Shown: piece after piece, positions 1 through 28,015 of the stretch
Position numbering within the stretch: position 1 is the first letter of the stretch
Layout: each line of letters begins with the position of its first letter
From: Spirogloea muscicola
Taxonomy: Eukaryota; Streptophyta; Zygnematophyceae; Spirogloeales; Spirogloeaceae
NCBI GenBank assembly: GCA_009602725.1
Contig: WELB01000353.1
Span: 36,442 to 64,456 of the forward strand
Direction of reading: 5' to 3'
Length of the DNA stretch: 28,015 nucleotides
Notes under the pieces: generated by a model
Told to the model about the DNA's origin: nothing
Databases searched by the model: none
The model's input: the letters and a program-made list of their open reading frames with translations, nothing else
Position numbers and translations under genes: made by a program

Positions 1-27
1 GCCGCCGCCGACGCCGCGGCCGCGGAG

Positions 28-154
28 ATGTCGACGGCGGCAGCCCCAGTGACGCCAGCCTTCTGGAGCGGCTCCGGCCTGCTACCCTTCTGCCAATTCA
101 CGCCCGGCACCCCGAACGCAGCAGCGGCGGCAATGTCGGCAGCGGCATCAAGGA

Positions 155-189
<35 letters not shown>

Positions 190-8133: not shown

Positions 8134-8839
8134 GGCTGAAGGTGTACCTGCTTGTCAGGAAATCAGTAATTGACTTACTTATTCCTCATTGGAAGGCCAT
8201 CTTCTTAACATCAAAATAACAAACACAAAGGCAATACAGTAGTGGGACATTGGAACTAATAACAAGTACATGTGACTATTGTGTCTTGCCGATACTGTCA
8301 CTTAGAAGCACTTTTCAGGCAGATCAGAACAATCGGCACTGCAATCATCAGCCTTGATATCTATTTGTAGTGGTCAACGAACTGCATGCATAGCATGTCA
8401 CCCACCAGGTCCCATGTGTATATCCAAGACGAGCTGCTGACGAGGAGATGACTTCGAAAGGGCTGGTCAGGCTATCTCAAGCCAAATTCCTGCGGAGGAC
8501 AGGATATCCACTCAGCTTTTGTCAACCCTGCGACGTCCCATTGTCAGACTCGCAAACGTCAAGTAGACACATCGCCACGTTGATCGTGCATGGTGTCACG
8601 CACTGCAATCTTCGTTCAGAGCGAATATGACAATAATGCCAGACTCTGCAGACGTAAGAGAGCAAAGACTAGATCAAAGGCAGGCGCTGTAAACGAAGCT
8701 GGCCAGCGTTTGGCCACATGGGGAGTGGCGATGAAGCCAGAAAGAAGGGCAGTGCCTGAAGTCCTGTCAATCGAGCTAGTGCAGGAGACTGAATGCTGAC
8801 TCGTGAGGGAAGCTGATCGCCGCGGTGTTTTTTACCGTG
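8134..8839. other. Upstream region of the BELL gene, no gene recognised
   Basis: This 700-bp stretch precedes the minus-strand start codon at 8133 and should hold its promoter and 5' untranslated region. An acceptor-like CTGACAAGCAG lies 17 bases before the ATG, so a 5' untranslated intron is possible. No clear TATA box or conserved coding segment was found. Confidence 0.35.
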
Positions 8840-9220
8840 AGCTCTCGTAGCTGCACTGCAGAGGCGTGGAAGGCAGCGTTGCCGAGTCCGGTCGTCACCG
8901 CCAGCCCGTCGTCGGAGGCCGGCAGTCGTCGAGCCGCCTCCGCCGCCGCCGCCGCAGAGGACCGGCGCTGCTGCGGCGGTGGCGCTGGCGGGACCGTCTC
9001 CGCCGCCGCCGCAGGTGTGCGGCGGCGGGGGCTCTGGCAGCGGCGGCCATGGCGGCCGCGGCGGCTCCTCCTTCCTCCGGGCTGCTGCCTGCAGGCGGTT
9101 GGCGCCCCCTCCGTTAATGCATTTCCATCAGCGCAGACAATCTCTCGCGGCGGACGGGCTCCACCGTCTCGCCGCGTCGCCGGCGCCGTCTCCCCGAGCC
9201 GCGATGAGATAACCACCTAA
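8840..9220. other. GC-rich island with coding-like composition, unassigned
   Basis: A sharp rise in GC content with CGG/GCC runs separates this block from AT-richer DNA on both sides. Both strands are open across it, as expected for GC-rich low-complexity DNA, and neither translation matches a family I know; the minus strand reads Ala/Pro/Arg-rich segments. It may be the first exon or CpG-rich promoter of a gene, for example an untranslated first exon of the BELL gene, or an exon whose partner is missing. Confidence 0.3.
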
Positions 9221-9733
9221 TGTTAATGCCCCTCTTATTGCCTGCTCCTTGACTGGTCGGCGGGGCGGGCGGTCACCTCAAACGGGATGTCCCCTCCCAT
9301 GCAAAAGAAGAAAGAAATGCTATTTGAAATGAAATGTAAGGCAATGTCTGTGACCTTGTTCTTTTGGAGCTTGTCCATCTGCTTAGGCTGGCTCTCACGG
9401 CTATTGCAAGAGCAATCTCATTCTTCGAGAGGCCAGCCAACAGGAATGAACAATGTAACGAATTTACATGGCTGGAATGTCAATGCAGCTGTGATGTATT
9501 AACAGATGCCTGGAGATTAGATACCTCATCCGGCTGATAAATAAATTGACTGTCAGTGCCGCAGGAAAGGCTTGACAGATGCCTGGAGACGGACAATTTC
9601 ACCAGGCTGGGCAGCGTGGCTTTGATATAGAGCTGAGAGCGGCGCAACCCGAGTCGTGACACGCGAGACAGCATGGTGCTGGCGCTGGAACGGCGACGGG
9701 AGGTGGCAGCGCTGTAGACTGCCTTGACGGCAT
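9221..9733. other. Gene-free DNA with a short imperfect direct repeat
   Basis: No gene is recognised. The phrase ACAGATGCCTGGAGA occurs twice, near 9502 and near 9575, each followed by a similar CATCCGGCTG or CACCAGGCTG block. This suggests a small local duplication. Confidence 0.35.
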
Positions 9734-10113
9734 TGTTAGCCGTTAGTATTGACGGGGATGATAGACGGCTGACGATAGCCTGGGGGTAGTGACCGTCAGC
9801 TGCGAGTGACGGGTAGATTGTCGGTGGTAGCCGTTGATAGCCGTCGACAGGTCGTGGACGGGTCATCAACGAGAGACTGGGTGCCGAATATCCCACCCGG
9901 GCCCGTATGGCCGGGCTCGCAGTCCGTCGGGCTATAAAGGGGGCACCCGAGATGGGAAAGGGGGTGACTTCTTCACCCAACCTCGGACCCCTGGACCCTT
10001 GCCCCTGCAGTAACCGTTGCTCAGTTTTACCCGTTGCGGCCCCATCCGAATGCCTCCCGCTTCTCCTTGCGCTGCCGGCAGCCCGGGCTTGGCGATCTAC
10101 AGCATTCGTTACA
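9734..10113 (+). mobile_element. LTR-like relic (possible solo LTR)
   Basis: The block begins TGTTAGCCGTTAG and could end GTTACA, about 380 bp. Near 9931 it has a TATA-like GGGCTATAAAGGGGG, followed by C/T-rich DNA, the layout of an LTR with U3, R and U5. I found no matching target duplications, no primer-binding site and no internal coding region, so a whole element is absent. The right end overlaps a TGTAA motif that may serve NAA20 on the other strand, so the boundary may be a coincidence. The alternative is an ordinary TATA promoter. Confidence 0.3.
10109..10113 (-). terminator. TGTAA-type polyadenylation signal candidate for NAA20
   Basis: On the minus strand TGTAA lies 34 bases after the NAA20 stop codon. 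TGTAA is the usual green-algal polyadenylation signal, and the spacing suits a very short 3' untranslated region. A five-base motif can occur by chance. Confidence 0.45.
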
Positions 10114-10146
10114 AAAGGTGCGCAGAAACTAGGGCCTCCTTTCTTA

Positions 10147-10662
10147 TTAATCATGCTCGAGCTCATCAGGGGTGATTGCCCGCCCAAGAGGGACCATCGA
10201 CTTCTTATCACGGTCCCGGGCCATCGCCTTACGCATATCTGTGCAGAGCATTTGCACGGTCAGAAGGCAGCATCGAGTCGAGTCGATTGTAAAGGGGGGT
10301 GATGGAAAGTGTTCAGATCGAACAATAGCAATGCTTAATGCGGTAGGCAGTGCACCCATTTTAGCTTAAGCATGCCAAGGTAAGGGAGTCGTGAGCGCTC
10401 ACCAAAAGCATCCTCCTCGCCCGAGTAGTAGCTGAGTACGCGCCGGTACACTGTGTACCCAAACTGCGAGGGCGACCACGAGGTTCAGGATGAATGGTTT
10501 GGCCAGTGCCCAGGCTACTTTCAGAGCACAGTTTAGCTCCAAGGTCACAAGCAAGCGCAGCAGCGCAATCATACTCAGGTCCATAAGCTCACCATCTTGT
10601 ACATCTCAATGGCCTTGACATTGGAGACCCGCACGAAGAGGTCAACAAAGTAGGCCGAGTAC
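10147..10662 (-). CDS. NAA20: N-alpha-acetyltransferase 20 (NatB catalytic subunit), C-terminal exons
   Basis: NatB acetylates the starting Met of proteins beginning Met-Asp, Met-Glu, Met-Asn or Met-Gln; NAA20 is its GNAT-fold catalytic subunit, working with NAA25 at the ribosome. Three terminal exons are visible: 10593-10662, 10403-10463 and 10147-10238, all GT-AG with agreeing phases (0, then 1). They read YFVDLFVRVSN, then MYKM joined to FGYTVYRRVLSYYSG, then EDAFDMRKAMARDRDKKS and a tail ending in PDELEHD. This is almost collinear with the remembered human protein (FFVDLFVRVSN, LGYSVYR, EDAYDMRKALSRDTEKKS). About 73 of a usual ~175 aa are present. The acetyl-CoA-binding N-terminal half is missing: immediately upstream lies a G homopolymer with an N. 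A short reading SSMAALLA at about 10707-10730 resembles the family's LMALLE segment and may be the end of the previous exon, but nothing further upstream is recognisable. Confidence 0.9.
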
Positions 10663-10668
10663 CTGAAA

Positions 10669-10702
10669 GGGGGGGGGGGGGGGGGGNGGGGGGGGGGGGG
10701 GG
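10669..10702. other. G homopolymer containing an N (likely gap or unresolved sequence)
   Basis: Eighteen G, one N at 10687 and fifteen more G. It falls directly upstream of the first visible NAA20 exon, in what should be an intron. Length and content here should not be trusted. Confidence 0.8.
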
Positions 10703-11270
10703 CCAAGAGGGCCGCCATGCTACTGTCTGTAAGTACATGGAGTACTTGGGCAGCGGTTGCTCTAGGCCAGAAACCTGAGCTTTGCACCAAGCCCAGTCTC
10801 GCACAAACCAGCGGACCAGTAGTGCTGACGCACAGAATAGCCACGAATTCTGCAAGAACGTGTCGAAAGTAGCAGGTTGCAACGGGCTGGATTGAAGGTG
10901 CATGAGTTGCAAATTTAGAGCGCGGTTGGCTTCCTTATGAGCCAATTGCTTGCACAGGCTTTCAGAAGTCTCTGCATGCAGCCTAAGGTTCTTCTGTCAC
11001 CTTGAGCAGGTAAGCTCAAGGACTGCTACTTGAAGAGGCCGAGCATCAAGGGTCAAGATTGTTCTTGGAACTTAGATTTCAAAACGTTGCCATATATGTA
11101 TACCTGAATAGGTGACATAGATATTCTAATAGTGTTCAGGGTGCAAAGTCACAGTAGGATTCTAACAGTGTTCAGGGTGATCTGAAAGAGCTGTGCATTG
11201 TGTGGATAGAGGTATCCACACAAAGTGGAAAGTGGCGCCACCCCTCCCAGGTTACTGAGAGCCTCCTTGT
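10703..11270. other. Region where the NAA20 N-terminal exons would be expected
   Basis: I translated the minus strand looking for NAA20 landmarks such as WPEYF, YIMGKAEG and VAPEYRR and did not find them. Either the exons are lost at the homopolymer, or the sequence beyond it does not belong directly next to the gene. A short direct repeat of TTCTAATAGTGTTCAGGGTG and TTCTAACAGTGTTCAGGGTG lies near 11125-11180. Confidence 0.4.
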
Positions 11271-11589
11271 CGTCTTAGCACTTAGTCCCCTGCTTTCTGC
11301 GCCATTCGGCTCCTCTTGACCTTGCCCATTCCTTTTGGGCTGGCTTCTCCAGCCACCAGTCAATTCGGCCGCGCTTTCCTTTTGGGCTGGCTTCTCCCAG
11401 CCACCAGTCAATTCGGCCGCGCTTTTCCCCCGCGGCGCCGCCGCCAGCCCAGGCGCCGGTGGGCCCACGCCGGGTGGCCGCACCGCCGCACCCCCAACCC
11501 AACCGCCGCTCCTCCGCGGGTCACTCGCGGGTACTGAGCTTCCATATGTTTGTTTCAAATACACGAAATTTTCTTCCATATGCATCGTC
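11271..11589 (+). repeat. Retroelement 3'-end relic with the RGY-stop tail
   Basis: A plus-strand open frame ends RVTRGY and stop at 11537, matching the tail peptide of the other relics. It is followed by GTTTGTTTCAAATACACGAA, shared with 12206-12230 and, inverted, with about 12405-12425. Upstream is a TTCGGCTCCTCTT..GGGCTGGC block like the one inside each 882-bp unit. The GC-rich middle (11425-11520) is low-complexity. Confidence 0.55.
11331..11426 (+). repeat. Two-copy tandem duplication of about 47 bp carrying the hairpin motif
   Basis: Copies start at 11331 and 11378 and run from CCTTTTGGGCTGGCTTCTC through CAATTCGGCCGCGCTTT. They differ by a single-base length change, so the duplication is recent or has been conserved. 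Confidence 0.9.
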
Positions 11590-12243
11590 TCGTGTCTAGT
11601 TGTGTATTTTTTCTAGTCGGCACCTTCTTTGGCTTTAGATATTGTCCATTCGTTTTGGGCTGGCGTGGCCTCTTGGGGCGTGCAACCTGGTGGAGTACCT
11701 CGGGCCCTGGTCGACGTGGTTGTTATGGAGGCGTACAAAGGTCCAGCATCGACACAAATCGCTGGCCACGCAGTGGGCATTGCAGAGCAGAGAAAGCTAC
11801 AGCACTACTCCGACTACCCCCGGTGCGATCAGCTCCTGCCAGCAGCAGTTGACACCTTTGGCTGTCTGGGTCCGCGTTTCCACACCCTCCTCCACAACAT
11901 TGCCAATTTGGGCTACACACGACGTGCAAATGTGTTCCCGGCTGAGATGTGCTTGCCAGCTGCATATCTGTCTTTCTTGCGCCGACGAGTTTCGGCCTGT
12001 TTGCAGCGTGCCCAGGCTAATGCCTTGCACCAGAAAGCTGGGCGAGCTCTAGCTGGTGGCAGAAGGGCTTCTTATCTGACATCTAGTATTCAGGCATCGA
12101 TTAGCGACCTTTATGTTTTGACCCGCGGTTACTGAGCGGGTCATTCTGCTGTAGGTTATGTAGGTCTTAGATGTGCTTGCCTTTGTACTTGGCCATTTGG
12201 CCTTCGTTTGTTTCACATACACGAGAATTGTCTTTTCTAAGGG
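11590..12243 (+). mobile_element. Non-LTR-type retroelement 3' fragment (C-terminal part of an RT-bearing ORF plus 3' UTR)
   Basis: A plus-strand frame open from 11629 to the stop at 12135 carries landmarks of the region after the reverse transcriptase in many LINE-like proteins: a short ALVDVVV strand, a run like AEQRKLQHYSDYP, then LLPAAVDTFGCLGPRFHTLL and SFLRRRVSACLQRAQANAL. It closes with ISDLYVLTRGY and stop. No reverse transcriptase domain is present, so it is a 5'-truncated copy, as LINE insertions usually are. The start at 11590 resembles a block inside the 882-bp unit (TTGTCCATTC..GGGCTGGC). LINE membership is inferred from the fragment's shape and truncation. Confidence 0.6.
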
Positions 12244-12693
12244 CGCGCATTCTTTATCCTGCGCTTTGCACCTATTCTTGCCTTTGGGCTGGTTTGGGCT
12301 GGCCTCTCACAGCCAGTCGCCTGACGTGGAAGTGCTGCTTCTTCCTCCATCTTGACGTCAGCAGCCGCAGGAGTCTTTCGGAAGGGAGCCCTTCCAAAGA
12401 TAAAACAATTTCGTGTATTTGGAACAAACGAAGGCCAAATGAACAAGTACAAAGGCAAGCACATCTGAAGACCTACATAACCTACAGCAGATTGACCCGC
12501 TCAGTAACCACGGGTCAAAACATGGAGGTCGCTGATCGATGCCTGCATACTAGATGACAGAAACGAAGCCATTCTGCCACCAACTAGAGCTCGCCCCAGC
12601 TTTCTGGTGCAAAGCATTAGCCTGAGCACGCTGCAAACAGGCCAAAAGTCGTCGTCGCAAGAACGACAGATAATGCAGCTGGCAAGTCCATCT
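11951..12693. repeat. Long inverted repeat, arms about 290 bp, made of two opposed retroelement 3' ends
   Basis: The left arm (about 11951-12238, plus strand) and right arm (about 12404-12693, minus strand) align along their length with scattered differences, roughly 85-90 percent identical by eye. Both encode FLRRR..CLQRAQANALHQKAG and SDL.VLTRGY with a stop (12135 on plus, 12501 on minus) and share the downstream block ending in a CGTTTGTT..ATACACGA motif. The spacer of about 165 bp contains a hairpin motif at 12296-12315. Confidence 0.8.
12404..12693 (-). mobile_element. Second non-LTR-type retroelement 3' fragment, inverted
   Basis: This is the right arm of the inverted repeat. On the minus strand it reads the same C-terminal segment as the plus-strand copy and ends ISDLHVLTRGY with its stop at 12501-12503, followed by about 95 bp of shared 3' sequence. 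It is truncated at its 5' side, has no reverse transcriptase domain and is a relic. Confidence 0.6.
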
Positions 12694-12704
12694 GCAGACG
12701 TGTT

Positions 12705-13056
12705 TCCCGGCAGCTAGTCTGTCGGATCTGAGGCTACTCACTCGTACCTACTGAGTGTTCCATCCTCCCCCTGTTCTGACATAGCATCTTCCGGCCCCTT
12801 GTCCATTGTTTTTGGGCTGGCTTTGCCAGCCCTTCTTCTCTATGGGCGAGCACTTTCTTTCTTTGTAGCTGCTAATAGCTTGTAGGCCCCGCCAAACCTT
12901 TGTCAATTCTTTTTGGGCTGGCTTTTCGCAGCCCTTGCCTCCATTGGGAGTGCCACTTCATCTCAGCCGGGAACACGTCTTCATGTCGTGTGTAGCCTAG
13001 ACCCTTCCAAAGGCTGCGGGGCCAGTGAAAAGCCGGCCCAGAAAGAAGTGAGGCCC
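12705..13056 (+). repeat. Further retroelement 3'-end relic with two hairpin motifs
   Basis: The plus strand encodes AASLSDLRLLTRTY and stop at 12710-12754, one more copy of the tail peptide. It is followed by hairpin-bearing blocks near 12816 and 12917, each a CCATT or CAATT then T-run then GGGCTGGCTTT..CAGCCC. A DVFPAEM-encoding segment on the minus strand near 12955-12985 matches one in the fragment at 11590-12243, so pieces in both directions adjoin here. Confidence 0.5.
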
Positions 13057-13249
13057 GCCCATTGAGGATAGGGGCTGGAAAAGCCAGCCCAAAAAAGAAT
13101 GAACAAAGTACGAGAAGGGGGCCAGAGGAAGCGCTAAGAAAACAAAGCACACAAAGACACAGAAGCACAGAAAGAAGGGCTCGCCCATTGAGGATAGGGG
13201 CTGGAAAAGCCAGCCCAAAAAAGAATGAACAAAGTACGAGAGGGGGCCA
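13057..13249 (-). repeat. Short tandem hairpin repeats flanking the array (period about 126 bp)
   Basis: The block GCCCATTGAGGATAGGGGCT..GCCAGCCCAAAAAAGAATG starts at 13057 and again at 13183, each followed by GGGGGCCAGAGGAAGCGC and AACAAAGCACACAAAG. The same blocks occur inside each 882-bp unit, where 265 bp of GC-rich DNA separates GGGGGCCA from GAGGAAGCGC. These copies look like the simpler precursor of part of that unit. Confidence 0.75.
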
Positions 13250-13866
13250 GAGGAAGCGCTAAGAAAACAAAGCACACAAAGAAAAAAAGCAGCTACAAAT
13301 CACTCAGTAACGCTTGCTAAGCAGCCGCAGATCAGAGAGGCTAGGGTCCTGAAAGTGGGTCCCCTGGCCAGAGCCAGAGGCAGCAGCGAGAGCTCTGCCG
13401 ACCGGAAGGTGCAGCGCGGCAGAAAAAGAAGAAAGGGCTAGCCCATTGAGGATAGGGGCTGGAAAAGCCAGCCCAAAAAAGAATGAACAAAGAACGAAAA
13501 GGGGGCCAGAGGAAGAAAGAATGTGCTCGCCCATAGAGATCTCTATGGGCGAGCACATTCTTCATAGAGAAGAGTGGCTGGCAAAGCCAGCCCAAGAAGA
13601 ATGGACAATATCCCAAGCCAAAGAAAGAGGAGCCGAAAAAGAACTACACCACAGGCCATGCCGTCGGACTAGGACGAAGACATCAGCCAGAGGACGCTCA
13701 GTAACCTCTAGTCAGGAGATGCAAGTCGGAGTAGCTAGCCGGGGGAAAGACGTCGCCCTGACGGAAGCCGGAGGCCGCCGCCAAAGAAGAAAGTGCTCGC
13801 CCATTGAGAATAGGGGCTGGAACAACCAGCCCGAAAAAGAATGAACAGAGTACGAGAAGGGGGCCA

Positions 13867-14131
13867 AAGCTCGGCCTGCTCGCAAGTGGACCGCGAACGC
13901 AAGTGACCGCTGAAGCGAGACGGCCAACCGCATGCGGAAGACCTGCGCAAGGGACCCGGCGACATTGAAGCCGGGCTGCTCGCCCTGCTGCCCGTGGCGG
14001 CGGGCCGCGGCCTGCTGCGCCAGGCGGTGAAGCCAGTCGAGCCACTTTGCGCCGAAGGCCCCGTGTACGTCGACTGCAAGGGGAACAAATTCGTCGCCCA
14101 CCGGGTGGTCTGCGTATTTACGTTCCTTGGC
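13867..14131 (-). mobile_element. GC-rich LINE-like C-terminal coding segment inside each array unit (first copy given)
   Basis: Copies recur every 882 bp, the last at 21805-22069. The minus strand reads ERKYADHPVGDEFVPLAVDV, then HGAFGAKWLDWLHRLAQQ and MRLAVSLQRSLAFAVHLRAG, the counterpart of QRKLQHYSDYP..AAVDTFGCLGPRF..SACLQRAQANAL in the fragment at 11590-12243 but from a clearly different subfamily. A hairpin block follows on the minus strand, and then the tail peptide SDLHLLTRGY with its stop at 13698. This is a relic fragment and not a whole element. Confidence 0.65.
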
Positions 14132-14398
14132 GAGGAAGCGCTAAGAAAACAAAGCACACAAAGATAGAAAGCAGCTACAAATCACTCAGTAACCCCTGCT
14201 AAGCAGCCGCAGATCAGAGAGGCTAGGGTCCTGAAAGTGGGTCCCCTGGCCAGAGCCAGAGGCAGCAGCGAGAGCTCTGCCGACCGGAAGGTACAGCGCG
14301 GCAGAAAAAGAAGAAAGGGCTAGCCCATTGAGGATAGGGGCTGGAAAAGCCAGCCCAAAAAAGAATGAACAAAGAACGAAAAGGGGGCCAGAGGAAGA

Positions 14399-14444
14399 AA
14401 GAATGTGCTCGCCCATAGAGATCTCTATGGGCGAGCACATTCTT
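14399..14444. repeat. Perfect 46-bp palindrome, one per array unit (unit 2 copy given)
   Basis: AAGAATGTGCTCGCCCATAG is followed by AGATCT and then its exact reverse complement, with no spacer. Copies lie at 13517-13562 and every 882 bp to 21455-21500. The half-site GTGCTCGCCCATAGAG matches the TCTATGGGCGAGCAC block near 12839, so it looks like two opposed copies of the hairpin-block end joined head to head. Confidence 0.95.
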
Positions 14445-17400
14445 CATAGAGAAGAGTGGCTGGCAAAGCCAGCCCAAGAAGAATGGACAATATCCCAAGC
14501 CAAAGAAAGAGGAGCCGAAAAAGAACTACACCACAGGCCATGCCGTCGGACTAGGACGAAGACATCAGCCAGAGGACGCTCAGTAACCTCTAGTCAGGAG
14601 ATGCAAGTCGGAGTAGCTAGCCGGGGGAAAGACGTCGCCCTGACGGAAGCCGGAGGCCGCCGCCAAAGAAGAAAGTGCTCGCCCATTGAGAATAGGGGCT
14701 GGAACAACCAGCCCGAAAAAGAATGAACAGAGTACGAGAAGGGGGCCAAAGCTCGGCCTGCTCGCAAGTGGACCGCGAACGCAAGTGACCGCTGAAGCGA
14801 GACGGCCAACCGCATGCGGAAGACCTGCGCAAGGGACCCGGCGACATTGAAGCCGGGCTGCTCGCCCTGCTGCCCGTGGCGGCGGGCCGCGGCCTGCTGC
14901 GCCAGGCGGTGAAGCCAGTCGAGCCACTTTGCGCCGAAGGCCCCGTGTACGTCGACTGCAAGGGGAACAAATTCGTCGCCCACCGGGTGGTCTGCGTATT
15001 TACGTTCCTTGGCGAGGAAGCGCTAAGAAAACAAAGCACACAAAGATAGAAAGCAGCTACAAATCACTCAGTAACCCCTGCTAAGCAGCCGCAGATCAGA
15101 GAGGCTAGGGTCCTGAAAGTGGGTCCCCTGGCCAGAGCCAGAGGCAGCAGCGAGAGCTCTGCCGACCGGAAGGTACAGCGCGGCAGAAAAAGAAGAAAGG
15201 GCTAGCCCATTGAGGATAGGGGCTGGAAAAGCCAGCCCAAAAAAGAATGAACAAAGAACGAAAAGGGGGCCAGAGGAAGAAAGAATGTGCTCGCCCATAG
15301 AGATCTCTATGGGCGAGCACATTCTTCATAGAGAAGAGTGGCTGGCAAAGCCAGCCCAAGAAGAATGGACAATATCCCAAGCCAAAGAAAGAGGAGCCGA
15401 AAAAGAACTACACCACAGGCCATGCCGTCGGACTAGGACGAAGACATCAGCCAGAGGACGCTCAGTAACCTCTAGTCAGGAGATGCAAGTCGGAGTAGCT
15501 AGCCGGGGGAAAGACGTCGCCCTGACGGAAGCCGGAGGCCGCCGCCAAAGAAGAAAGTGCTCGCCCATTGAGAATAGGGGCTGGAACAACCAGCCCGAAA
15601 AAGAATGAACAGAGTACGAGAAGGGGGCCAAAGCTCGGCCTGCTCGCAAGTGGACCGCGAACGCAAGTGACCGCTGAAGCGAGACGGCCAACCGCATGCG
15701 GAAGACCTGCGCAAGGGACCCGGCGACATTGAAGCCGGGCTGCTCGCCCTGCTGCCCGTGGCGGCGGGCCGCGGCCTGCTGCGCCAGGCGGTGAAGCCAG
15801 TCGAGCCACTTTGCGCCGAAGGCCCCGTGTACGTCGACTGCAAGGGGAACAAATTCGTCGCCCACCGGGTGGTCTGCGTATTTACGTTCCTTGGCGAGGA
15901 AGCGCTAAGAAAACAAAGCACACAAAGATAGAAAGCAGCTACAAATCACTCAGTAACCCCTGCTAAGCAGCCGCAGATCAGAGAGGCTAGGGTCCTGAAA
16001 GTGGGTCCCCTGGCCAGAGCCAGAGGCAGCAGCGAGAGCTCTGCCGACCGGAAGGTACAGCGCGGCAGAAAAAGAAGAAAGGGCTAGCCCATTGAGGATA
16101 GGGGCTGGAAAAGCCAGCCCAAAAAAGAATGAACAAAGAACGAAAAGGGGGCCAGAGGAAGAAAGAATGTGCTCGCCCATAGAGATCTCTATGGGCGAGC
16201 ACATTCTTCATAGAGAAGAGTGGCTGGCAAAGCCAGCCCAAGAAGAATGGACAATATCCCAAGCCAAAGAAAGAGGAGCCGAAAAAGAACTACACCACAG
16301 GCCATGCCGTCGGACTAGGACGAAGACATCAGCCAGAGGACGCTCAGTAACCTCTAGTCAGGAGATGCAAGTCGGAGTAGCTAGCCGGGGGAAAGACGTC
16401 GCCCTGACGGAAGCCGGAGGCCGCCGCCAAAGAAGAAAGTGCTCGCCCATTGAGAATAGGGGCTGGAACAACCAGCCCGAAAAAGAATGAACAGAGTACG
16501 AGAAGGGGGCCAAAGCTCGGCCTGCTCGCAAGTGGACCGCGAACGCAAGTGACCGCTGAAGCGAGACGGCCAACCGCATGCGGAAGACCTGCGCAAGGGA
16601 CCCGGCGACATTGAAGCCGGGCTGCTCGCCCTGCTGCCCGTGGCGGCGGGCCGCGGCCTGCTGCGCCAGGCGGTGAAGCCAGTCGAGCCACTTTGCGCCG
16701 AAGGCCCCGTGTACGTCGACTGCAAGGGGAACAAATTCGTCGCCCACCGGGTGGTCTGCGTATTTACGTTCCTTGGCGAGGAAGCGCTAAGAAAACAAAG
16801 CACACAAAGATAGAAAGCAGCTACAAATCACTCAGTAACCCCTGCTAAGCAGCCGCAGATCAGAGAGGCTAGGGTCCTGAAAGTGGGTCCCCTGGCCAGA
16901 GCCAGAGGCAGCAGCGAGAGCTCTGCCGACCGGAAGGTACAGCGCGGCAGAAAAAGAAGAAAGGGCTAGCCCATTGAGGATAGGGGCTGGAAAAGCCAGC
17001 CCAAAAAAGAATGAACAAAGAACGAAAAGGGGGCCAGAGGAAGAAAGAATGTGCTCGCCCATAGAGATCTCTATGGGCGAGCACATTCTTCATAGAGAAG
17101 AGTGGCTGGCAAAGCCAGCCCAAGAAGAATGGACAATATCCCAAGCCAAAGAAAGAGGAGCCGAAAAAGAACTACACCACAGGCCATGCCGTCGGACTAG
17201 GACGAAGACATCAGCCAGAGGACGCTCAGTAACCTCTAGTCAGGAGATGCAAGTCGGAGTAGCTAGCCGGGGGAAAGACGTCGCCCTGACGGAAGCCGGA
17301 GGCCGCCGCCAAAGAAGAAAGTGCTCGCCCATTGAGAATAGGGGCTGGAACAACCAGCCCGAAAAAGAATGAACAGAGTACGAGAAGGGGGCCAAAGCTC

Positions 17401-20400
17401 GGCCTGCTCGCAAGTGGACCGCGAACGCAAGTGACCGCTGAAGCGAGACGGCCAACCGCATGCGGAAGACCTGCGCAAGGGACCCGGCGACATTGAAGCC
17501 GGGCTGCTCGCCCTGCTGCCCGTGGCGGCGGGCCGCGGCCTGCTGCGCCAGGCGGTGAAGCCAGTCGAGCCACTTTGCGCCGAAGGCCCCGTGTACGTCG
17601 ACTGCAAGGGGAACAAATTCGTCGCCCACCGGGTGGTCTGCGTATTTACGTTCCTTGGCGAGGAAGCGCTAAGAAAACAAAGCACACAAAGATAGAAAGC
17701 AGCTACAAATCACTCAGTAACCCCTGCTAAGCAGCCGCAGATCAGAGAGGCTAGGGTCCTGAAAGTGGGTCCCCTGGCCAGAGCCAGAGGCAGCAGCGAG
17801 AGCTCTGCCGACCGGAAGGTACAGCGCGGCAGAAAAAGAAGAAAGGGCTAGCCCATTGAGGATAGGGGCTGGAAAAGCCAGCCCAAAAAAGAATGAACAA
17901 AGAACGAAAAGGGGGCCAGAGGAAGAAAGAATGTGCTCGCCCATAGAGATCTCTATGGGCGAGCACATTCTTCATAGAGAAGAGTGGCTGGCAAAGCCAG
18001 CCCAAGAAGAATGGACAATATCCCAAGCCAAAGAAAGAGGAGCCGAAAAAGAACTACACCACAGGCCATGCCGTCGGACTAGGACGAAGACATCAGCCAG
18101 AGGACGCTCAGTAACCTCTAGTCAGGAGATGCAAGTCGGAGTAGCTAGCCGGGGGAAAGACGTCGCCCTGACGGAAGCCGGAGGCCGCCGCCAAAGAAGA
18201 AAGTGCTCGCCCATTGAGAATAGGGGCTGGAACAACCAGCCCGAAAAAGAATGAACAGAGTACGAGAAGGGGGCCAAAGCTCGGCCTGCTCGCAAGTGGA
18301 CCGCGAACGCAAGTGACCGCTGAAGCGAGACGGCCAACCGCATGCGGAAGACCTGCGCAAGGGACCCGGCGACATTGAAGCCGGGCTGCTCGCCCTGCTG
18401 CCCGTGGCGGCGGGCCGCGGCCTGCTGCGCCAGGCGGTGAAGCCAGTCGAGCCACTTTGCGCCGAAGGCCCCGTGTACGTCGACTGCAAGGGGAACAAAT
18501 TCGTCGCCCACCGGGTGGTCTGCGTATTTACGTTCCTTGGCGAGGAAGCGCTAAGAAAACAAAGCACACAAAGATAGAAAGCAGCTACAAATCACTCAGT
18601 AACCCCTGCTAAGCAGCCGCAGATCAGAGAGGCTAGGGTCCTGAAAGTGGGTCCCCTGGCCAGAGCCAGAGGCAGCAGCGAGAGCTCTGCCGACCGGAAG
18701 GTACAGCGCGGCAGAAAAAGAAGAAAGGGCTAGCCCATTGAGGATAGGGGCTGGAAAAGCCAGCCCAAAAAAGAATGAACAAAGAACGAAAAGGGGGCCA
18801 GAGGAAGAAAGAATGTGCTCGCCCATAGAGATCTCTATGGGCGAGCACATTCTTCATAGAGAAGAGTGGCTGGCAAAGCCAGCCCAAGAAGAATGGACAA
18901 TATCCCAAGCCAAAGAAAGAGGAGCCGAAAAAGAACTACACCACAGGCCATGCCGTCGGACTAGGACGAAGACATCAGCCAGAGGACGCTCAGTAACCTC
19001 TAGTCAGGAGATGCAAGTCGGAGTAGCTAGCCGGGGGAAAGACGTCGCCCTGACGGAAGCCGGAGGCCGCCGCCAAAGAAGAAAGTGCTCGCCCATTGAG
19101 AATAGGGGCTGGAACAACCAGCCCGAAAAAGAATGAACAGAGTACGAGAAGGGGGCCAAAGCTCGGCCTGCTCGCAAGTGGACCGCGAACGCAAGTGACC
19201 GCTGAAGCGAGACGGCCAACCGCATGCGGAAGACCTGCGCAAGGGACCCGGCGACATTGAAGCCGGGCTGCTCGCCCTGCTGCCCGTGGCGGCGGGCCGC
19301 GGCCTGCTGCGCCAGGCGGTGAAGCCAGTCGAGCCACTTTGCGCCGAAGGCCCCGTGTACGTCGACTGCAAGGGGAACAAATTCGTCGCCCACCGGGTGG
19401 TCTGCGTATTTACGTTCCTTGGCGAGGAAGCGCTAAGAAAACAAAGCACACAAAGATAGAAAGCAGCTACAAATCACTCAGTAACCCCTGCTAAGCAGCC
19501 GCAGATCAGAGAGGCTAGGGTCCTGAAAGTGGGTCCCCTGGCCAGAGCCAGAGGCAGCAGCGAGAGCTCTGCCGACCGGAAGGTACAGCGCGGCAGAAAA
19601 AGAAGAAAGGGCTAGCCCATTGAGGATAGGGGCTGGAAAAGCCAGCCCAAAAAAGAATGAACAAAGAACGAAAAGGGGGCCAGAGGAAGAAAGAATGTGC
19701 TCGCCCATAGAGATCTCTATGGGCGAGCACATTCTTCATAGAGAAGAGTGGCTGGCAAAGCCAGCCCAAGAAGAATGGACAATATCCCAAGCCAAAGAAA
19801 GAGGAGCCGAAAAAGAACTACACCACAGGCCATGCCGTCGGACTAGGACGAAGACATCAGCCAGAGGACGCTCAGTAACCTCTAGTCAGGAGATGCAAGT
19901 CGGAGTAGCTAGCCGGGGGAAAGACGTCGCCCTGACGGAAGCCGGAGGCCGCCGCCAAAGAAGAAAGTGCTCGCCCATTGAGAATAGGGGCTGGAACAAC
20001 CAGCCCGAAAAAGAATGAACAGAGTACGAGAAGGGGGCCAAAGCTCGGCCTGCTCGCAAGTGGACCGCGAACGCAAGTGACCGCTGAAGCGAGACGGCCA
20101 ACCGCATGCGGAAGACCTGCGCAAGGGACCCGGCGACATTGAAGCCGGGCTGCTCGCCCTGCTGCCCGTGGCGGCGGGCCGCGGCCTGCTGCGCCAGGCG
20201 GTGAAGCCAGTCGAGCCACTTTGCGCCGAAGGCCCCGTGTACGTCGACTGCAAGGGGAACAAATTCGTCGCCCACCGGGTGGTCTGCGTATTTACGTTCC
20301 TTGGCGAGGAAGCGCTAAGAAAACAAAGCACACAAAGATAGAAAGCAGCTACAAATCACTCAGTAACCCCTGCTAAGCAGCCGCAGATCAGAGAGGCTAG

Positions 20401-22103
20401 GGTCCTGAAAGTGGGTCCCCTGGCCAGAGCCAGAGGCAGCAGCGAGAGCTCTGCCGACCGGAAGGTACAGCGCGGCAGAAAAAGAAGAAAGGGCTAGCCC
20501 ATTGAGGATAGGGGCTGGAAAAGCCAGCCCAAAAAAGAATGAACAAAGAACGAAAAGGGGGCCAGAGGAAGAAAGAATGTGCTCGCCCATAGAGATCTCT
20601 ATGGGCGAGCACATTCTTCATAGAGAAGAGTGGCTGGCAAAGCCAGCCCAAGAAGAATGGACAATATCCCAAGCCAAAGAAAGAGGAGCCGAAAAAGAAC
20701 TACACCACAGGCCATGCCGTCGGACTAGGACGAAGACATCAGCCAGAGGACGCTCAGTAACCTCTAGTCAGGAGATGCAAGTCGGAGTAGCTAGCCGGGG
20801 GAAAGACGTCGCCCTGACGGAAGCCGGAGGCCGCCGCCAAAGAAGAAAGTGCTCGCCCATTGAGAATAGGGGCTGGAACAACCAGCCCGAAAAAGAATGA
20901 ACAGAGTACGAGAAGGGGGCCAAAGCTCGGCCTGCTCGCAAGTGGACCGCGAACGCAAGTGACCGCTGAAGCGAGACGGCCAACCGCATGCGGAAGACCT
21001 GCGCAAGGGACCCGGCGACATTGAAGCCGGGCTGCTCGCCCTGCTGCCCGTGGCGGCGGGCCGCGGCCTGCTGCGCCAGGCGGTGAAGCCAGTCGAGCCA
21101 CTTTGCGCCGAAGGCCCCGTGTACGTCGACTGCAAGGGGAACAAATTCGTCGCCCACCGGGTGGTCTGCGTATTTACGTTCCTTGGCGAGGAAGCGCTAA
21201 GAAAACAAAGCACACAAAGATAGAAAGCAGCTACAAATCACTCAGTAACCCCTGCTAAGCAGCCGCAGATCAGAGAGGCTAGGGTCCTGAAAGTGGGTCC
21301 CCTGGCCAGAGCCAGAGGCAGCAGCGAGAGCTCTGCCGACCGGAAGGTACAGCGCGGCAGAAAAAGAAGAAAGGGCTAGCCCATTGAGGATAGGGGCTGG
21401 AAAAGCCAGCCCAAAAAAGAATGAACAAAGAACGAAAAGGGGGCCAGAGGAAGAAAGAATGTGCTCGCCCATAGAGATCTCTATGGGCGAGCACATTCTT
21501 CATAGAGAAGAGTGGCTGGCAAAGCCAGCCCAAGAAGAATGGACAATATCCCAAGCCAAAGAAAGAGGAGCCGAAAAAGAACTACACCACAGGCCATGCC
21601 GTCGGACTAGGACGAAGACATCAGCCAGAGGACGCTCAGTAACCTCTAGTCAGGAGATGCAAGTCGGAGTAGCTAGCCGGGGGAAAGACGTCGCCCTGAC
21701 GGAAGCCGGAGGCCGCCGCCAAAGAAGAAAGTGCTCGCCCATTGAGAATAGGGGCTGGAACAACCAGCCCGAAAAAGAATGAACAGAGTACGAGAAGGGG
21801 GCCAAAGCTCGGCCTGCTCGCAAGTGGACCGCGAACGCAAGTGACCGCTGAAGCGAGACGGCCAACCGCATGCGGAAGACCTGCGCAAGGGACCCGGCGA
21901 CATTGAAGCCGGGCTGCTCGCCCTGCTGCCCGTGGCGGCGGGCCGCGGCCTGCTGCGCCAGGCGGTGAAGCCAGTCGAGCCACTTTGCGCCGAAGGCCCC
22001 GTGTACGTCGACTGCAAGGGGAACAAATTCGTCGCCCACCGGGTGGTCTGCGTATTTACGTTCCTTGGCGAGGAAGCGCTAAGAAAACAAAGCACACAAA
22101 GAT

Positions 22104-22104
22104 N
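22104..22104. other. Assembly break at the right end of the array
   Basis: A single N interrupts the eleventh unit; the following sequence (a C/T-rich tract from 22105) shares nothing with the repeat. The most likely reading is a scaffold gap at an unresolved array, with both array copies and the start of the next gene missing. Confidence 0.8.
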
Positions 22105-22214
22105 TCTCGCTCCCTCCCCTCCTCCCTCCCTCCTCCTCGACCCTCACGAGCTGGGCACCCCCCACTTCTTCCTCCATCTGCTGGCGCAGCCCGCCATGCT
22201 CTGCAGAGACTCCA
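22105..22214 (+). other. Possible upstream exon or intron tail of the O-fucosyltransferase gene
   Basis: A C/T-rich tract (CTCCCTCCC..CCTCCTCGAC) leads into CACGAGCTGGGCACCC and ends at a good donor, CTCCA with GTAAGC at 22215. In the frame phase-compatible with the next exon the text is low-complexity; the more protein-like frame (HELGTPHFFLHLLAQPAM) does not match the phase. The exon boundary on the left is not visible. Confidence 0.35.
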
Positions 22215-22354
22215 GTAAGCGTCAAGAGGACTATGACAGTGACATCGATTCACTGGTGACACTGTCATAGATCGTTAAGGTATGTTGCGAAGTAGCGCCT
22301 TCATCATCGTTTCTGAACTTACGGAGCCACCGATCCCTCTCCTCTCTCCTGCAG

Positions 22355-23784
22355 GAGTTCCTCAAGCGGCAGGGCGGCCGTCGCTGGGAGCAGGAGGTGC
22401 TGGTCGTGGGGCGCGTGCTCTGCTGGCTCGAAGGCTGCATCTACCCCGCCGGCCGGCCTCCGGAGCACAAGCGCATCCGGTTCCCGCCGGTCGTCGAGGA
22501 GAGCGGCCTGGCGCCCAACCTGACGATGGCCCACTTCCGCGCCGCCTTTGGCGACGTCCCCGACGCCGTCCTCTCGCTGGGCGACGTGTACCTGCCCGCC
22601 AACGTGACGGACGCGCCGCCGCTGCCCCGCATCCTCTCGGCGCGCCACAACGGCACCATGGCTACCAAGTGCCGCCTCCTGGTCAAGCCCCACGATGCCA
22701 TCATCAAGGTCTGCATCTTCACCACAAAAGCCCGTAGGTCTACATAAAGTGTGGTCCTGATAGTGTTTGAGATTTTGCGATTAAATGCAAGGGTGAGTAA
22801 TCTGCTACAACAACTAACAATACGGCTACATCATGATTTAGCAATGTGGCTCTGTCAAGCAAGCAAACGGTAACCTCAGAAGGATGCTTATTGATCGGTA
22901 CCTGCAGTATAGGAGGTGTTCCATTGTAAGATTACATTGCAGCTTCACGTGTATTCGAGCCATAGATCTAAACGACAGATCATTGTCCGTCTACTGGTCA
23001 GCAACACAAGAGAGCCTATAGACGTCACCATCACTGACTGTCAACCAAGCTACGTTGTCCATTTGCCCGTGGGACGGCTCGCTGCTTGCGATTGAGGAGA
23101 CAGTGCTGGCTTCTTGATCACATCGGTCTGCTGAGATGCTCAGCTGCAATCGTGGTATCCTCATGAAGAGTTTGCCAGCACAGCTGACGTGTCTGGCCAT
23201 TACATTTGCCAATCATAACCATTTTCAATGAGTATTATGTGCAGGCGGCGAGGGGCTTTGTGCGGGAGTTCACGGGTGCCAACTACGCGGCGCTGCACCT
23301 GCGGCGCTCCGACTTCTACCGGGACGTGCCGCAGCCGCAGAAGGGCCTCAAGTACTGGTCCATCCAGCAGGTGGCGGAGTGCATCTCGCGCAAGCTGCAG
23401 GCGCTGGGTGGCGTGCGGCTGCTCTTCCTGGCGACGGACGCCACCGACAGCGACGTGCGGCTGCTGCAGAGCCTGCTGCTGGGGCTCGCGTCGCCGGCGC
23501 AGCCGGTGAGCCTCGTGCGGCTGCCCAACATGGGCCGCGAGGTGTGGGCGGGCGACCTCAACCGCCTCGGCCTCGCCGAGGACCCCCTTGCCGTCGCGCT
23601 GGTCGAGAAGCTCATCTGCGCCATGGCCGCCGCCTTCTTCTCCTCGCCCTACTCGTCCTTCTCCTTCCACATCCGGCAGTACCGCGCCGCCTTCTCCATG
23701 CCGACGTGCTACGACCAGCTCATCTGCGAGGGCCAGGAGTGGCGCGACCCCATCCCCACCTCCCTCAACCTCTTTGCCACGTGA
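22355..23784 (+). CDS. GDP-fucose protein O-fucosyltransferase family protein, C-terminal part
   Basis: Predicted ER/Golgi lumenal enzyme moving fucose from GDP-fucose to Ser or Thr of target proteins (O-FucT family, closest by eye to POFUT2-like proteins). Two exons are clear: 22355-22708 (118 codons) and 23245-23784 (179 codons and stop), joined in phase 0 across a 536-bp GT-AG intron, giving 297 aa. Family marks are ANYAALHLRRSDFYRDV in the second exon, where the HLRR Arg is the expected catalytic or GDP-binding residue, the LFLATDAT strand, and EKLICAMAAAFFSSPYSSFS with HIRQYR near the end. The first exon carries three N-glycosylation sequons (NLT, NVT, NGT), which suits a lumenal protein. 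An upstream exon probably ends at the GTAAGC donor at 22215, but its frame is unclear and its start is lost at the N. The signal sequence and substrate-loop half are not seen. Confidence 0.83.
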
Positions 23785-24104
23785 CTAGCTCGGCAGCTGC
23801 ACCCCAATACTAGACGAACCCGATCAGTAACTCAAGTTATCATCCTTAGTGGGTTATGGGCTCCTCTTATGACGGCCATTCCTTCCTGGTCGCCTGCGAC
23901 TGACGCACTATGGAGCTCGTTGTGACGCCGATGCAGCGGACTTAACGGACTCACTTCTTCTGTGTTGAGATCACCCGCTGAAATCTGCGGCAATGCAGGC
24001 TGCCTGTTGGCAGCCCGACAGGCTTCCTCGCTTTGCTGCTTCCAGACTGGCGCTCATTGATGAGCCGCTCGAGTGCGGCCACAGTGGAGTCAGCTCAAGG
24101 ACAA

Positions 24105-24109
24105 TGTAA
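24105..24109 (+). terminator. TGTAA polyadenylation signal candidate for the O-fucosyltransferase gene
   Basis: TGTAA lies about 320 bases after the stop codon at 23784, a normal algal 3' untranslated length. A chance match is possible. Confidence 0.35.
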
Positions 24110-24237
24110 CTTATTGTAGCCTGGCTGCCCTCAGTGGCAGCCATTGAGTGGCTTCTGAGGAAGCTCAAGGAGGATCTGCTGACTGCAGCTTTACAGTCCA
24201 CTGCACGGTATTGCTCGCAGATGCATTGACATGCTAT

Positions 24238-24291
24238 CAAGTACTTTGATGGGTCCCTTCATTGCAAGTACCTTGATGGGTCCCTTCATTG
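24238..24291 (+). repeat. 27-bp tandem duplication
   Basis: CAAGTACTTTGATGGGTCCC with TTCATTG occurs twice head to tail (24238-24264, 24265-24291) with one base difference. It is in intergenic DNA. Confidence 0.9.
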
Positions 24292-25202
24292 CAGTCACCG
24301 AATGCTTATAGGTGTTGAGTTCTTGCTCAAGATACAGGACACTGAATCACGGCAAGTAGAGCCAGAGTGACGAGAGGAGTGTTGGTCGCACAATGAGTAG
24401 CTCCAAATAGCGCAGCTAGATACAAGCCCTACCTTTCTGACTAAAGTAGTACAAATTTTGAGCTCTTGCCTATGTCATGACATTGCACAAGTTCATCAGC
24501 CACTGCATCATAGCAATGATCTCATTCCACTGCGGTGTAACTGAAGACAGTCTTAGTTGGTTGGCTCTTTCACAAAGAATGGCAAAAGGAACAGCCATCT
24601 CATCGTTCTGTGATTTTGACCGCCAGACCCACTAAAAGCTTTCGTGAGCCCCCGTCTGGTCTGGTGATAGATTCAGCAGCCGTGAGCTTAACAAGACTGT
24701 ACTGGGAGCCCACCAGACATTCTGCAGTGCATGTATGCTGACTTGCTTCCATGCACATGCGACGATTGTCAGCAACACGATGTTAGTGCAAAGGCCTGAA
24801 GGAAAACGACTGCTGGCTTGAGCCAGCGTGTCTTAGCCGAGCCCAAATAACTGAGAAGCTGACAATTGCATGATGAAGCGCAATTTCCTTCCTAAACCAA
24901 GGGGCCTCAACAGCAAGCAGACTGAAGCCCTCGCGCTTTTTAGCAAAGCTCCATGAGACCTCGTGCAACAAGTCTCCAATAGTGTAATGTCCAATCATTC
25001 TATGGTGATCCATGGTAATTAAGCGAAGTAGTGCTCAAAGTGCAGTTCGCTGGTTAACTGCCAAAGCACTGTCAAGAGCTCTTGACAGAATGCGACATGC
25101 CTTATGATCAACGTGACCCAGTCGTTGGAACAGTGGACCCAAAGGGCAGGTGCAGATAAATCATGTTAACACATACAAGCAGCTCAGCTTGCAAAACAGA
25201 GC

Positions 25203-25207
25203 TTACA
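25203..25207 (-). terminator. TGTAA polyadenylation signal candidate for gamma-glutamyl hydrolase
   Basis: On the minus strand TGTAA lies about 157 bases after the stop codon at 25364, a fitting distance for a green-algal transcript end. Confidence 0.4.
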
Positions 25208-25363
25208 ATGGTGGAGGGTGCGACTACCTCCGGGTGGGGAGGACCCGCCCAAAGAATCACTAGTGCGAACCTCACAACAAATGCCCGGCAAGGCCGGCTA
25301 AGTGGACTACGAACTAAAATTATAAAATAAGCTCAAGTCTAATGGCTGACAATGGGGTCCGCA

Positions 25364-28015
25364 CTACGTCAGTAGCACGATGTCGGACACTGTCGTTGTC
25401 TTGACCGCCAAAGGCTCCTCAAGAAGAGCCTGCCGACGCTCACCCCGGCGCCGCATGGACCGCTTGGGGAAGAAATACATCTGGTCGTAATCATGGCCCT
25501 CGACAAGTGCAGTATACCGAAGCGGCCAATTGTCAACCACTGAGCGCATAGCCACGTCCCGTGGCACGTAGTGCTCATTCTTCCTCGCCTCGCTGCCAAG
25601 CCCAAAGGTTCTGATTGAGTTTATTGGGCTCTACATTGTGATAACTTTACAAAACCTGCTCCATTGAGGTAATTGGGCTCTACATTGTGGACTAGTCTCA
25701 GAATCTGTTCAAGAGGTTACTGTGGACCTTCTGACACAAGTATCTGGTCCAGAGTGCTCATTTGGCCTTCCATAAAGCCCTACACTTGCACCTTGATGTA
25801 AAACCCGAGTCTCGTATCGAAATGAGTAGACAAGAAGTAGCAGTGCGATGGATTGAGGTTTCAGAGACACTGGCCCAGATTTTCAGATGTTGATTGAGTG
25901 TTGATCAAGGTCCAGGTTCAAGCACCAACCTGACAATGAAGTTGGCAAAGGCCTGCGTGACGAGGACCGCATCCTGGCAATGCGGCACATTGATGGCGCT
26001 GTACCATTCGTACGGGTGCTTCTCGGCGTGCCACTGTGTCGCGCTCACAGGGTACCGCACGCCAGCCAACGTTGACACATACTCCTGGATAAGCCACAGC
26101 TCGAGAATGGTCACCAGGAGCGTCATAGAAATGAGAATGCCGCAGACTTTGAGACTTTTGACCAGGAGTTTCAGGGCTCGATGATGCAAGTATTTGGCAT
26201 TTTGAGCAGAAACATTGACATGGATCCTGTTCAGAAAGTCCAGATTTCCCAATTTTCAAGCGGGTTCTGCTAGAAATTATCGACTTTAAATACGGGTGTA
26301 CTCCCAAGTGAAACCATATGGAAGATTTGGCATCTGAGCACGAAGCTTGACAAATAATTGCCAGGCGCTTATCATGATCATTTGTCTTCTGTCTTGACCA
26401 CTACTTGCGCTTCAAGTTGCCAGTGGTGATCCTCCACGACGACGATGCAAGCAATGTCGCATGCACGGCCGCTCAGAGCCGGGGGCCGCAGCGCAAACCT
26501 TGCCGTCGGCATCACTTGACGTCGTCAGCACCTCGAAGAAGTCGGAGAGCTCGCCATCAGCGCTCAGGACCTCCGGCAGCAATCCCCACTGCAGCGCCAT
26601 GCAGGTCAACTATCAAATTAATGTTCATTTCTTCATTGCTGAGCTACATCACTTGGAGAGATTCCACCTCCCACGAGCATCACACGGACAGGCTCGCGGC
26701 ATTCCTCAGGAGATATCTCAGAGTGCTAACAGAAGCTCCGGGTTAGTGCCGTTGACAGCCTCGCAAGGCGGCTGGCAGGACTCACCCGGTGCGTCTCCAT
26801 GGTCAGCGGCCGGCGCTGGACAAGCTCCAGGAGGTCGTTGCTCATCCTGCACATGGTGGCGACCATTGCAACGAGCGGCGTCAATCTGGACCAGGCGGTC
26901 GACAAGCTCAGCGGCGGTGCCGGCATCCAAGGCGAGCTCGGAGGGCGGCGCGGCCGCCGCCCTCACCAGGCGAATAGGCGATGGCACTTGGCGTCGTTCG
27001 ATGCGAACTCCAGCGCCGCCGGTTGCCCCACGGCGTTCACCGGCTTCAGGAGGCCATCAGCCTGCGGCATTGACCGCGAATAGCATTTTCAATTAGCGAA
27101 GCACGGCTGCCATCATAGAGTGAGGTGGGGCCGGTCGGCGGCCATGGCCGGCTCGCTCACCGGGCTGACGAGCTTCATCAGCAGCTCGAGGCCGAGGCAG
27201 GTGCCGTGCACGGGGAAGTAGTCGCCGCGGTCGTTGGCCGCCAGCGCCATCTGCGGCGACGTGACGGAGGCCGGCCCCTGCCTCAGATCCAGCTGCCGAT
27301 GCAATCCGCAATGTGTGCATCCACACTAAGGTTAAGACTAACATTGACATTAAAACTACAACATAATGGCGGCCGCAGCGTCTTTAGACCTTGAAGAGCT
27401 TCTGGGCGGTCTTGAAGTACTTGTAGCACCGGCCGAGGCGCGCAAAGCCGCCGGTGAACAGGAGCATGTTGATGCGGCTGAAGACCTGCGCGCCCGCTGA
27501 AGCGAGCTCAGCGGCGTCCACCGCAGCTCGGCTGCAGCGGCGAGGAGAGAACCGCAACGGCGGCAGTCGCCGTAACGGCGACAGTTGGTGCAACGGCGGC
27601 GGCGGCGGCGGCGATTCTGAAGCTCTTGAACCCATATCTTTTAATCAGAGAACCCAAGTGAGTCTTAGCTCTGCGGACCTCCTCGAGCTCGTCGTCGGAC
27701 GAGTCGTAGAACACCGGCACGGCCTGGCCGCCGGCGGACTCCACCATCTTGACGTACGACGCCGAGATGAAGGACCCGAGCGCCGGCATGGCGTTGCCGC
27801 GGCTGGGGTGCTGCCCCAGGCCGTAGTGCGGGTGGGTGTAGATGCCTGCGTCAGCCGTCAGCGGCGAACCGTCAGGCGTCCACAGGCGTCAGCCGTCACG
27901 AACGTCAGCCCGTCAGGCGGAGGCCCGCCTGGCGGTGCCACCGCCCATCTGCGGCACTCCCGGGCCGCCGAAGGCGGCGGCGGCAGCGGCGACAGCGGCG
28001 GCGGCGGCAGCGGCG
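25364..28015 (-). CDS. GGH: Gamma-glutamyl hydrolase (folate polyglutamate hydrolase), 5' end outside window
   Basis: Peptidase C26 enzyme that trims glutamates from folate polyglutamates, in plants in the vacuole; it sets folate retention. Exons in coding order: 27942 to beyond 28015, 27679-27845, 27390-27485, 27161-27250, 26967-27061, 26786-26846, 26499-26588, 25930-26084, 25364-25610; all GT-AG with agreeing phases, about 333 aa from exon 2 onward. Family landmarks in order are SASYVKMVESAGGQAVPV, INMLLFTGG, NDRGDYFPVHGTCLGLELL with the nucleophile Cys, DLLELVQRRPLT, FFEVLTTSSDADGK, and YPVSATQWHAEKHPYEW with the catalytic His; the closing SEARKNEHYVP resembles the human EARKNNHHF. They are collinear with human GGH. 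Exon 1 is Ala-rich and open to the edge; the signal peptide would lie outside. The last intron (25611-25929) holds a 20-bp direct repeat, TATTGGGCTCTACATTGTG and TAATTGGGCTCTACATTGTG. No lost catalytic residue was seen. Confidence 0.95.
27846..27941 (-). repeat. Degenerate CGTCAGC-type short repeats filling an intron
   Basis: The first visible GGH intron (96 bp) consists largely of CGTCAGC, CGTCAGG and CGTCACG words in near-tandem order on the plus strand (CTGACG words on the coding strand). This suggests local slippage-driven growth. Confidence 0.7.

Follow-up and report, generated by a model that had tools for sequence, protein, structure and literature searches.

A stretch of 28,015 nucleotides from Spirogloea muscicola (NCBI GenBank assembly GCA_009602725.1, contig WELB01000353.1, positions 36,442 to 64,456 of the forward strand), hereafter the window, holds an array with a period of 882 bp that appears to be built from the 3′ ends of retroelements. 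We put at about 55% the probability that the array is genuine, a tandem of composite ends expanded by exchange, its copy number being uncertain. The origin of the unit from retroelement 3′ ends, already proposed by the sequence-only reading, appears well supported: the open reading frame (ORF) ends that recur differ less at amino-acid-changing than at silent sites, an insertion site is seen both filled and empty with a 5-bp flanking repeat, and tails are chained head to tail.

The array extends from 13250 to 22103 (no strand assigned) and consists of ten full head-to-tail copies of 882 bp plus 34 bp. When 13000-22500 was compared with itself at an offset of 882, identity was 94%; six further offsets gave 26-29%. 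Among copies 2-10 there are 0 differences, and copy 1 differs from copy 2 only at 13283, 13285, 13312, 13314 and 13411, all within the first 162 bp, a clustering with a chance of 2e-4 if the differences were uniform. The earlier description of ten identical units except for the left edge of the first was thus exact. The array is absent from the Tandem Repeats Finder listing, in which the longest period is 500, and the right flank gave no blastn match of the 882-bp unit at E 0.01 or better. The window has a GC content of ~56% and contains GC-rich exon-like stretches, which together with an AP2-like sequence would point to a green alga. No open stretch through the unit exceeds 163 codons and each of the six frames has 4-10 stops per unit; therefore no single repeating protein is encoded by the array. 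No cellular function is indicated for the unit.

On the minus strand the unit reads as a succession of 5′-truncated retroelement 3′ ends. In unit coordinates (u), given on the plus strand and counted from 14132, two ORF ends were recognised by comparison of such ends, QDPSLSDLRLLSRGY-stop within u34-138 (RGY1; 14186-14233 in copy 2, minus strand) and PPASYSDLHLLTRGY-stop within u429-532 (RGY2; 14580-14627, minus strand). Three hairpin blocks of the form GGGCTGG-loop-CCAGCCC or close variants, found by blastn and hairpin comparison, lie at u154-262 (H1; 14285-14393), u314-359 (H2; 14445-14490) and u513-620 (H3; 14644-14751), all on the minus strand in copy 2, and H1 and H3 are followed by tails resembling GGGCGAGCACTTTCTTCTTT. 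Two inverted tail copies form a perfect 46-bp palindrome at u268-313 (14399-14444, no strand assigned; sequence and folding), and for a 56-nt piece spanning it the predicted fold has −39 kcal/mol and a z of −10. The remaining part, u618-882 (14749-15013, minus strand), is a 265-bp GC-rich coding-like segment which splits a 3′ untranslated region (UTR) and is similar to a relic at 11779-12054. The composite anatomy described from the letters is present, the hairpin blocks numbering three and the palindrome being perfect, alongside both RGY-stop tails and the GC-rich segment, and the left-flank relics of hairpins, tails and coding segment that it invoked were recovered by blastn and related sequence comparisons.

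The common motif of the ORF ends is SDLxLLxRGY-stop. Outside the array, ORF ends have stops at 3192 (+), 12135 (+), 12501 (−) and 12754 (+); together with the SKRY-stop variant of copy 1 and the two ends in the unit these make seven distinct sequences, of which five end in RGY, one in RTY and one in KRY. The final 12 codons of the seven tails were compared in 21 pairs that are not independent; the pooled in-frame differences per silent site (pS) and per amino-acid-changing site (pN) were 0.70 and 0.30, respectively, whereas the two alternative frames of the same tails gave pS/pN of 0.36/0.45 and 0.22/0.45. Pairs found by nucleotide comparison without the motif gave pS/pN of 0.31/0.08 (RGY1-3192), 0.82/0.17 (RGY1-RGY2) and 0.35/0.04 (12135-12501), and all three point in the same direction as the pooled result. 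The decayed end in copy 1 differs from RGY1 by two nonsynonymous and zero synonymous changes, as a dead copy would be expected to do.

The 265-bp segment of the unit and the relic at 11779-12054 share 34% identity (tblastn E 3e-11 in a small search of the window only). The frame of this relic runs on to the RGY stop at 12135, giving a coding C-terminus with an RGY-stop end at 11779-12135 (plus strand; tblastn and ORF-end comparison). A distant relic with the ORF end that stops at 3192 lies at 3109-3226 (plus strand; blastn/tblastn and ORF-end comparison). Neither Pfam nor PDB gave a family for the coding segments. The 265-bp segment had been called reverse transcriptase (RT) type; what it resembles is another relic of the window (34%), no Pfam or PDB match points to RT, and it may be an RT C-terminus, a weakly supported assignment. 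From these ends the element is probably of the non-long-terminal-repeat (non-LTR) type, that is, of the long interspersed nuclear element (LINE) type, and only C-terminal fragments of the putative element are recognised in the window. PDB matches of the coding segments to sulfite oxidase, a galanin receptor and HapR, with E between 0.1 and 0.9, were taken as noise, and a structure prediction for the coding relic from a two-row alignment, with a mean predicted local distance difference test score (pLDDT) of 46.7, was set aside. A protein-pattern scan of viral contigs with both coding segments returned 33 stretches that fit a pattern, of which 0 were confirmed.

Nine hairpin relics occur outside the array (3280, 3503, 11338, 11385, 12297, 12815, 12916, 13073 and 13199), besides the three in each unit, and the hairpin tails read GGGCGAGC-CTT and are then C/T-rich. 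Twelve sequences were compared, chosen from the hairpin search matches together with an incomplete hairpin at 11657 that was picked out by eye. The set excluded 11385 as a near-duplicate of 11338, the matches at 7336, 8461 and 27801, in which no flanking motif was visible on inspection, and the further occurrences of H1-H3 in copies 2-10. Of 7 possible pairs the inner stem forms 6 or 7 in 11 of the 12 sequences, the twelfth being without one side, and since this stem is near-invariant it carries no covariation signal. The outer stem had 7 or 8 of 8 pairs in five of the 12. Folding z-scores of the four single tails tried ranged from −0.9 to −3.2, and the hairpin is not claimed here as a selected RNA structure. 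Scans with hairpin DNA patterns gave 0 matches each in viral contig and genome contig collections, Rfam gave 0 matches at gathering thresholds and the tRNA search gave 0.

Evidence of insertion is found beside the array, on its left, where alignment revealed an inverted repeat of two diverged coding ends placed tail to tail (11911-12997, no strand assigned), the left arm being the empty site and the right arm the filled one. The main arm blocks are 90-93% complementary, and the right arm holds 265 bp (12694-12958, plus strand) that are missing from the left. This insert contains two head-to-tail 3′ ends, namely an ORF end with the hairpin at 12815 and its tail, and then a second 3′ end with the hairpin at 12916. 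It is flanked by CATCT at 12689-12693 and 12959-12963, and at the corresponding position the left arm has a single CATCT (11945-11949). The boundaries of the insert were taken from the printed sites, the gap placed by MAFFT being slightly different. A 5-bp match at the fixed edges of a 265-bp interval was obtained in 0.4% of random placements in the window. Insert and CATCT repeats together are the pattern that target-primed insertion with a short target-site duplication would leave.

Among the seven hairpin ends in 12780-14140, five have a tail that runs into another 3′ end: H3 runs into RGY2 and H1 into RGY1, H2 passes through the palindrome to reach the H1 UTR, the end at 13215 continues into the 13089 UTR, and that at 12815 continues into 12916. 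The remaining two, 13089 and 12916, are not followed by a further 3′ end. Chaining from head to tail is therefore frequent at this locus.

Two direct copies of one 3′ end lie exactly one array period apart. Copy 1 starts with segment A (13250-13411, minus strand), a decayed 3′ end (SKRY-stop) joined on its left to an intact 3′ UTR, and two uninterrupted hairpin/3′ UTR blocks in array orientation adjoin this copy (13031-13249, minus strand; blastn and alignment). Left of the array this UTR is unbroken (GGGGGCCA-GAGGAAGCGC) twice, at 13125 and 13250, and the same point in the unit is split by 265 bp. Copies 2-10 start with segment B (14132-14293 in copy 2, minus strand, recurring every 882 bp), with the 265-bp segment before it. 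The two segments, A and B, agree at 157 of 162 positions (97%), run in the same direction and lie 882 bp apart, B ending in RGY as in most relatives and A in the decayed KRY. As a substrate for unequal exchange, their spacing of 882 bp would explain why the array has this period, and such an origin, to be inferred from the arrangement of the repeats, is a good fit.

The sequence of events proposed here would begin with several 5′-truncated 3′ ends of one non-LTR-type (LINE-type) group of retroelements, inserted one behind another. Each end would comprise the conserved SDLxLLxRGY-stop C-terminus, followed by a short 3′ UTR and by a GC hairpin whose tail is GGGCGAGC-CTT, and in one of them the 3′ UTR would have been broken by the 265-bp coding fragment. 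Unequal exchange between A and B would have duplicated exactly 882 bp and given middle copies with B-type starts, and further exchange may have expanded and homogenised the array.

At its right edge the array meets an N at 22104, one of two in the window, which lies one base past the first A/B variant site; the last array base, 22103, is that first variant site and carries the B-type T. That the array end and the variant site coincide was seen only in hindsight. If exchange formed the array, B must have extended across all five variant sites, and the end at u34 is therefore not natural, the array being cut there. A real array may continue into a gap at this point, or an assembly loop may have stopped where the A and B types diverge. 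We infer that the lone N is an assembly seam; passages of the literature bearing on scaffolders gave no direct statement that overlaps are written as a single N. With the array cut at a seam, its natural right end would be outside the window and the true copy number is not fixed, at least a second, B-type start being present and more or fewer than ten units possible; more than two real units probably exist. The other N of the window, at 10687, lies in a run of 34 G (10669-10702); this is probably another assembly seam, and 10688-22103 may be a separate contig piece.

Several points weigh against a real array of retroelement ends grown by exchange. The CATCT repeat is just 5 bp long and comes from one site, and no target-site duplication flanks the 265-bp segment of the unit. 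The tails of the pS/pN comparison were gathered by an amino-acid motif, which in itself lowers pN. Pfam detected neither RT nor endonuclease nor any further retroelement domain, whether in the coding segments or in six-frame scans of 4001-13249 and 22105-28015 with stops written as X; the six-frame form is insensitive and also missed the O-fucosyltransferase (O-FucT) match described below. Finally, nine identical copies that stop at a variant site beside an N are also expected of an assembly loop. In that case the copy number would be an artefact: the true locus would hold copy 1 and a second B-type 3′ end, and the long identical stretches shared by A and B would create an 882-bp cycle in the assembly graph, walked several times at gap fill and leaving one N. 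We regard this as a serious competitor, although we give it well under even odds. It accommodates the base-for-base identity of copies 2-10 and the confinement of all five copy-1 differences to the first 162 bp (2e-4 if uniform), as well as the precise stop of the array at the first A/B variant site with the N next to it; that the other N is inside a poly-G run of 34 bases agrees with it, and bases 1 and 28015 of the window lie in GCC/GGC-type sequence that is probably frequent at short-read contig ends. Against this, the B-type starts are not the same as A, which requires a second and distinct copy of u1-162 with the 265-bp segment before it; a contig of long reads broken inside a real array would end likewise; and gap filling is reported, in the relevant part of PMC3158087, to collapse and not to expand tandem repeats. 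The terms macrosatellite and recent amplification or ongoing homogenisation, first applied to the array, cannot be relied on, since an N follows the perfect copies and an assembler loop would give the same identity.

All readings other than an exchange-grown tandem and an assembly loop are, taken together, unlikely. One of them sees a functional centromeric or subtelomeric satellite, kept homogeneous through chromosome use like the Zepp clusters or the Sultan repeats of Chlamydomonas. Nested-LINE clusters of the Zepp type do mark putative centromeres in Coccomyxa and Chlamydomonas according to the portions of PMC3446292 and PMC8226300 that treat them, and the latter places ZeppL in the last 20 kb of 28 of 30 centromeric contig ends in two relatives of Chlamydomonas, so that contigs there also stop at such clusters. 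We nevertheless hold such a role to be improbable, as gene-like sequence lies on both sides of the array (AP2-like at ~1-1550, homeobox-like at ~4.1 kb and O-FucT-like from 23188), and no telomere-type repeat of at least two units (TTTAGGG or TTTTAGGG in tandem, both strands) occurs in the 28 kb of the window, from which the right array end is missing. Rolling-circle or replication-based amplification of an 882-bp circle, in place of unequal exchange, would also yield a real array; the identity of nine copies fits a single burst and the 46-bp palindrome could perhaps stall forks, but no sequence feature separates this route from exchange and the A/B repeats already explain the period. It is the least probable of the readings considered.

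The unit invites comparison with Zepp, the 3′ tail of which is poly(A), whereas the tails at this locus consist of a hairpin and CTT-rich sequence in place of poly(A). The unit of Sultan is about 850 bp, and the array resembles it as a long-unit tandem repeat of similar size in a green alga, a likeness of size and arrangement. Sultan repeats are subtelomeric in Chlamydomonas (PMC10030371, in the part concerned with them); telomere repeats are absent from the 28 kb of this window, in which the array lacks its right end. In Zepp clusters of green algae, as the pertinent text of PMC8226300 describes, nested insertion targets existing copies and yields tandem arrays of mostly 3′ ends, and Coccomyxa apparently has one such cluster per chromosome (a passage of PMC3446292). 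The locus is like Zepp and ZeppL of Coccomyxa and Chlamydomonas in its tandem chains of mostly 5′-truncated 3′ ends and nested head-to-tail insertion, seen here in five of seven hairpin tails, but unlike them in that several ends are joined into a single composite, which recurs unchanged with a period of 882 bp. By analogy the locus may behave as a minor nest of the Zepp type that later became tandem, and it would be at most a candidate member of Zepp. Chlorella centromeres are, in the section of PMC11005252 devoted to them, transposon-based and without tandem satellites.

Composite satellite monomers have been proposed to arise from degraded transposon loci, and the same 2025 review, in its part on this subject, calls their origin an open question (PMC12628747). 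As in these satellites from transposable element (TE) graveyards, the monomer here consists of several TE fragments and the locus is crowded with degraded copies; unlike in them, the fragments come from one group of 3′ ends and the likely source relics are adjacent. In Lathyrus sativus most satellites derive from tandem repeats in retrotransposon 3′ UTRs, as stated in the portion of PMC7004042 on their origin, and the array is like those derived from Ogre in stemming from retrotransposon 3′ untranslated DNA. Ogre, however, is an LTR element with short tandem repeats already present in its 3′ UTR, whereas the unit here would come from several separate insertions.

The flanks of the array carry further gene-like sequence. 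The right flank opens after the N with C/T-rich sequence, followed at 22150-23784 (plus strand) by the O-FucT-like gene (PF10250 E 0.0017, below the cut-off; POFUT2 chains from E 3e-4), the start of which was not found between the N at 22104 and the first likely exon. A 27-bp tandem duplicate of 2.1 copies occurs at 24238-24293. At the left end, an AP2-domain gene, apparently split by an intron, occupies 1-1550 (plus strand), with PF00847 at E 1.2e-5 (below the cut-off) on its second part and the first part recognised by eye. A homeobox-like match lies at ~4037-4237 on the minus strand (Homeobox_KN, PF05920, E 2e-4, below the cut-off), and its peptide WFVNARARRWKPMV presumably resembles BELL-type TALE proteins.

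Tentatively, a retroelement with a hairpin-plus-CTT 3′ end may have made its own tails the site of new insertions. The chain of ends so formed, by way of two direct copies 882 bp apart, may now be a young and perfectly homogeneous satellite whose founder parts can be read nearby among genes, so that the birth of a satellite would have been caught at its source. If the array is real, it would offer a stepwise view of satellite birth, from nested end insertion through interruption by a fragment to amplification between direct copies. If it is an assembly loop, it would be a warning that the direct repeats able to seed satellites also seed false ones.

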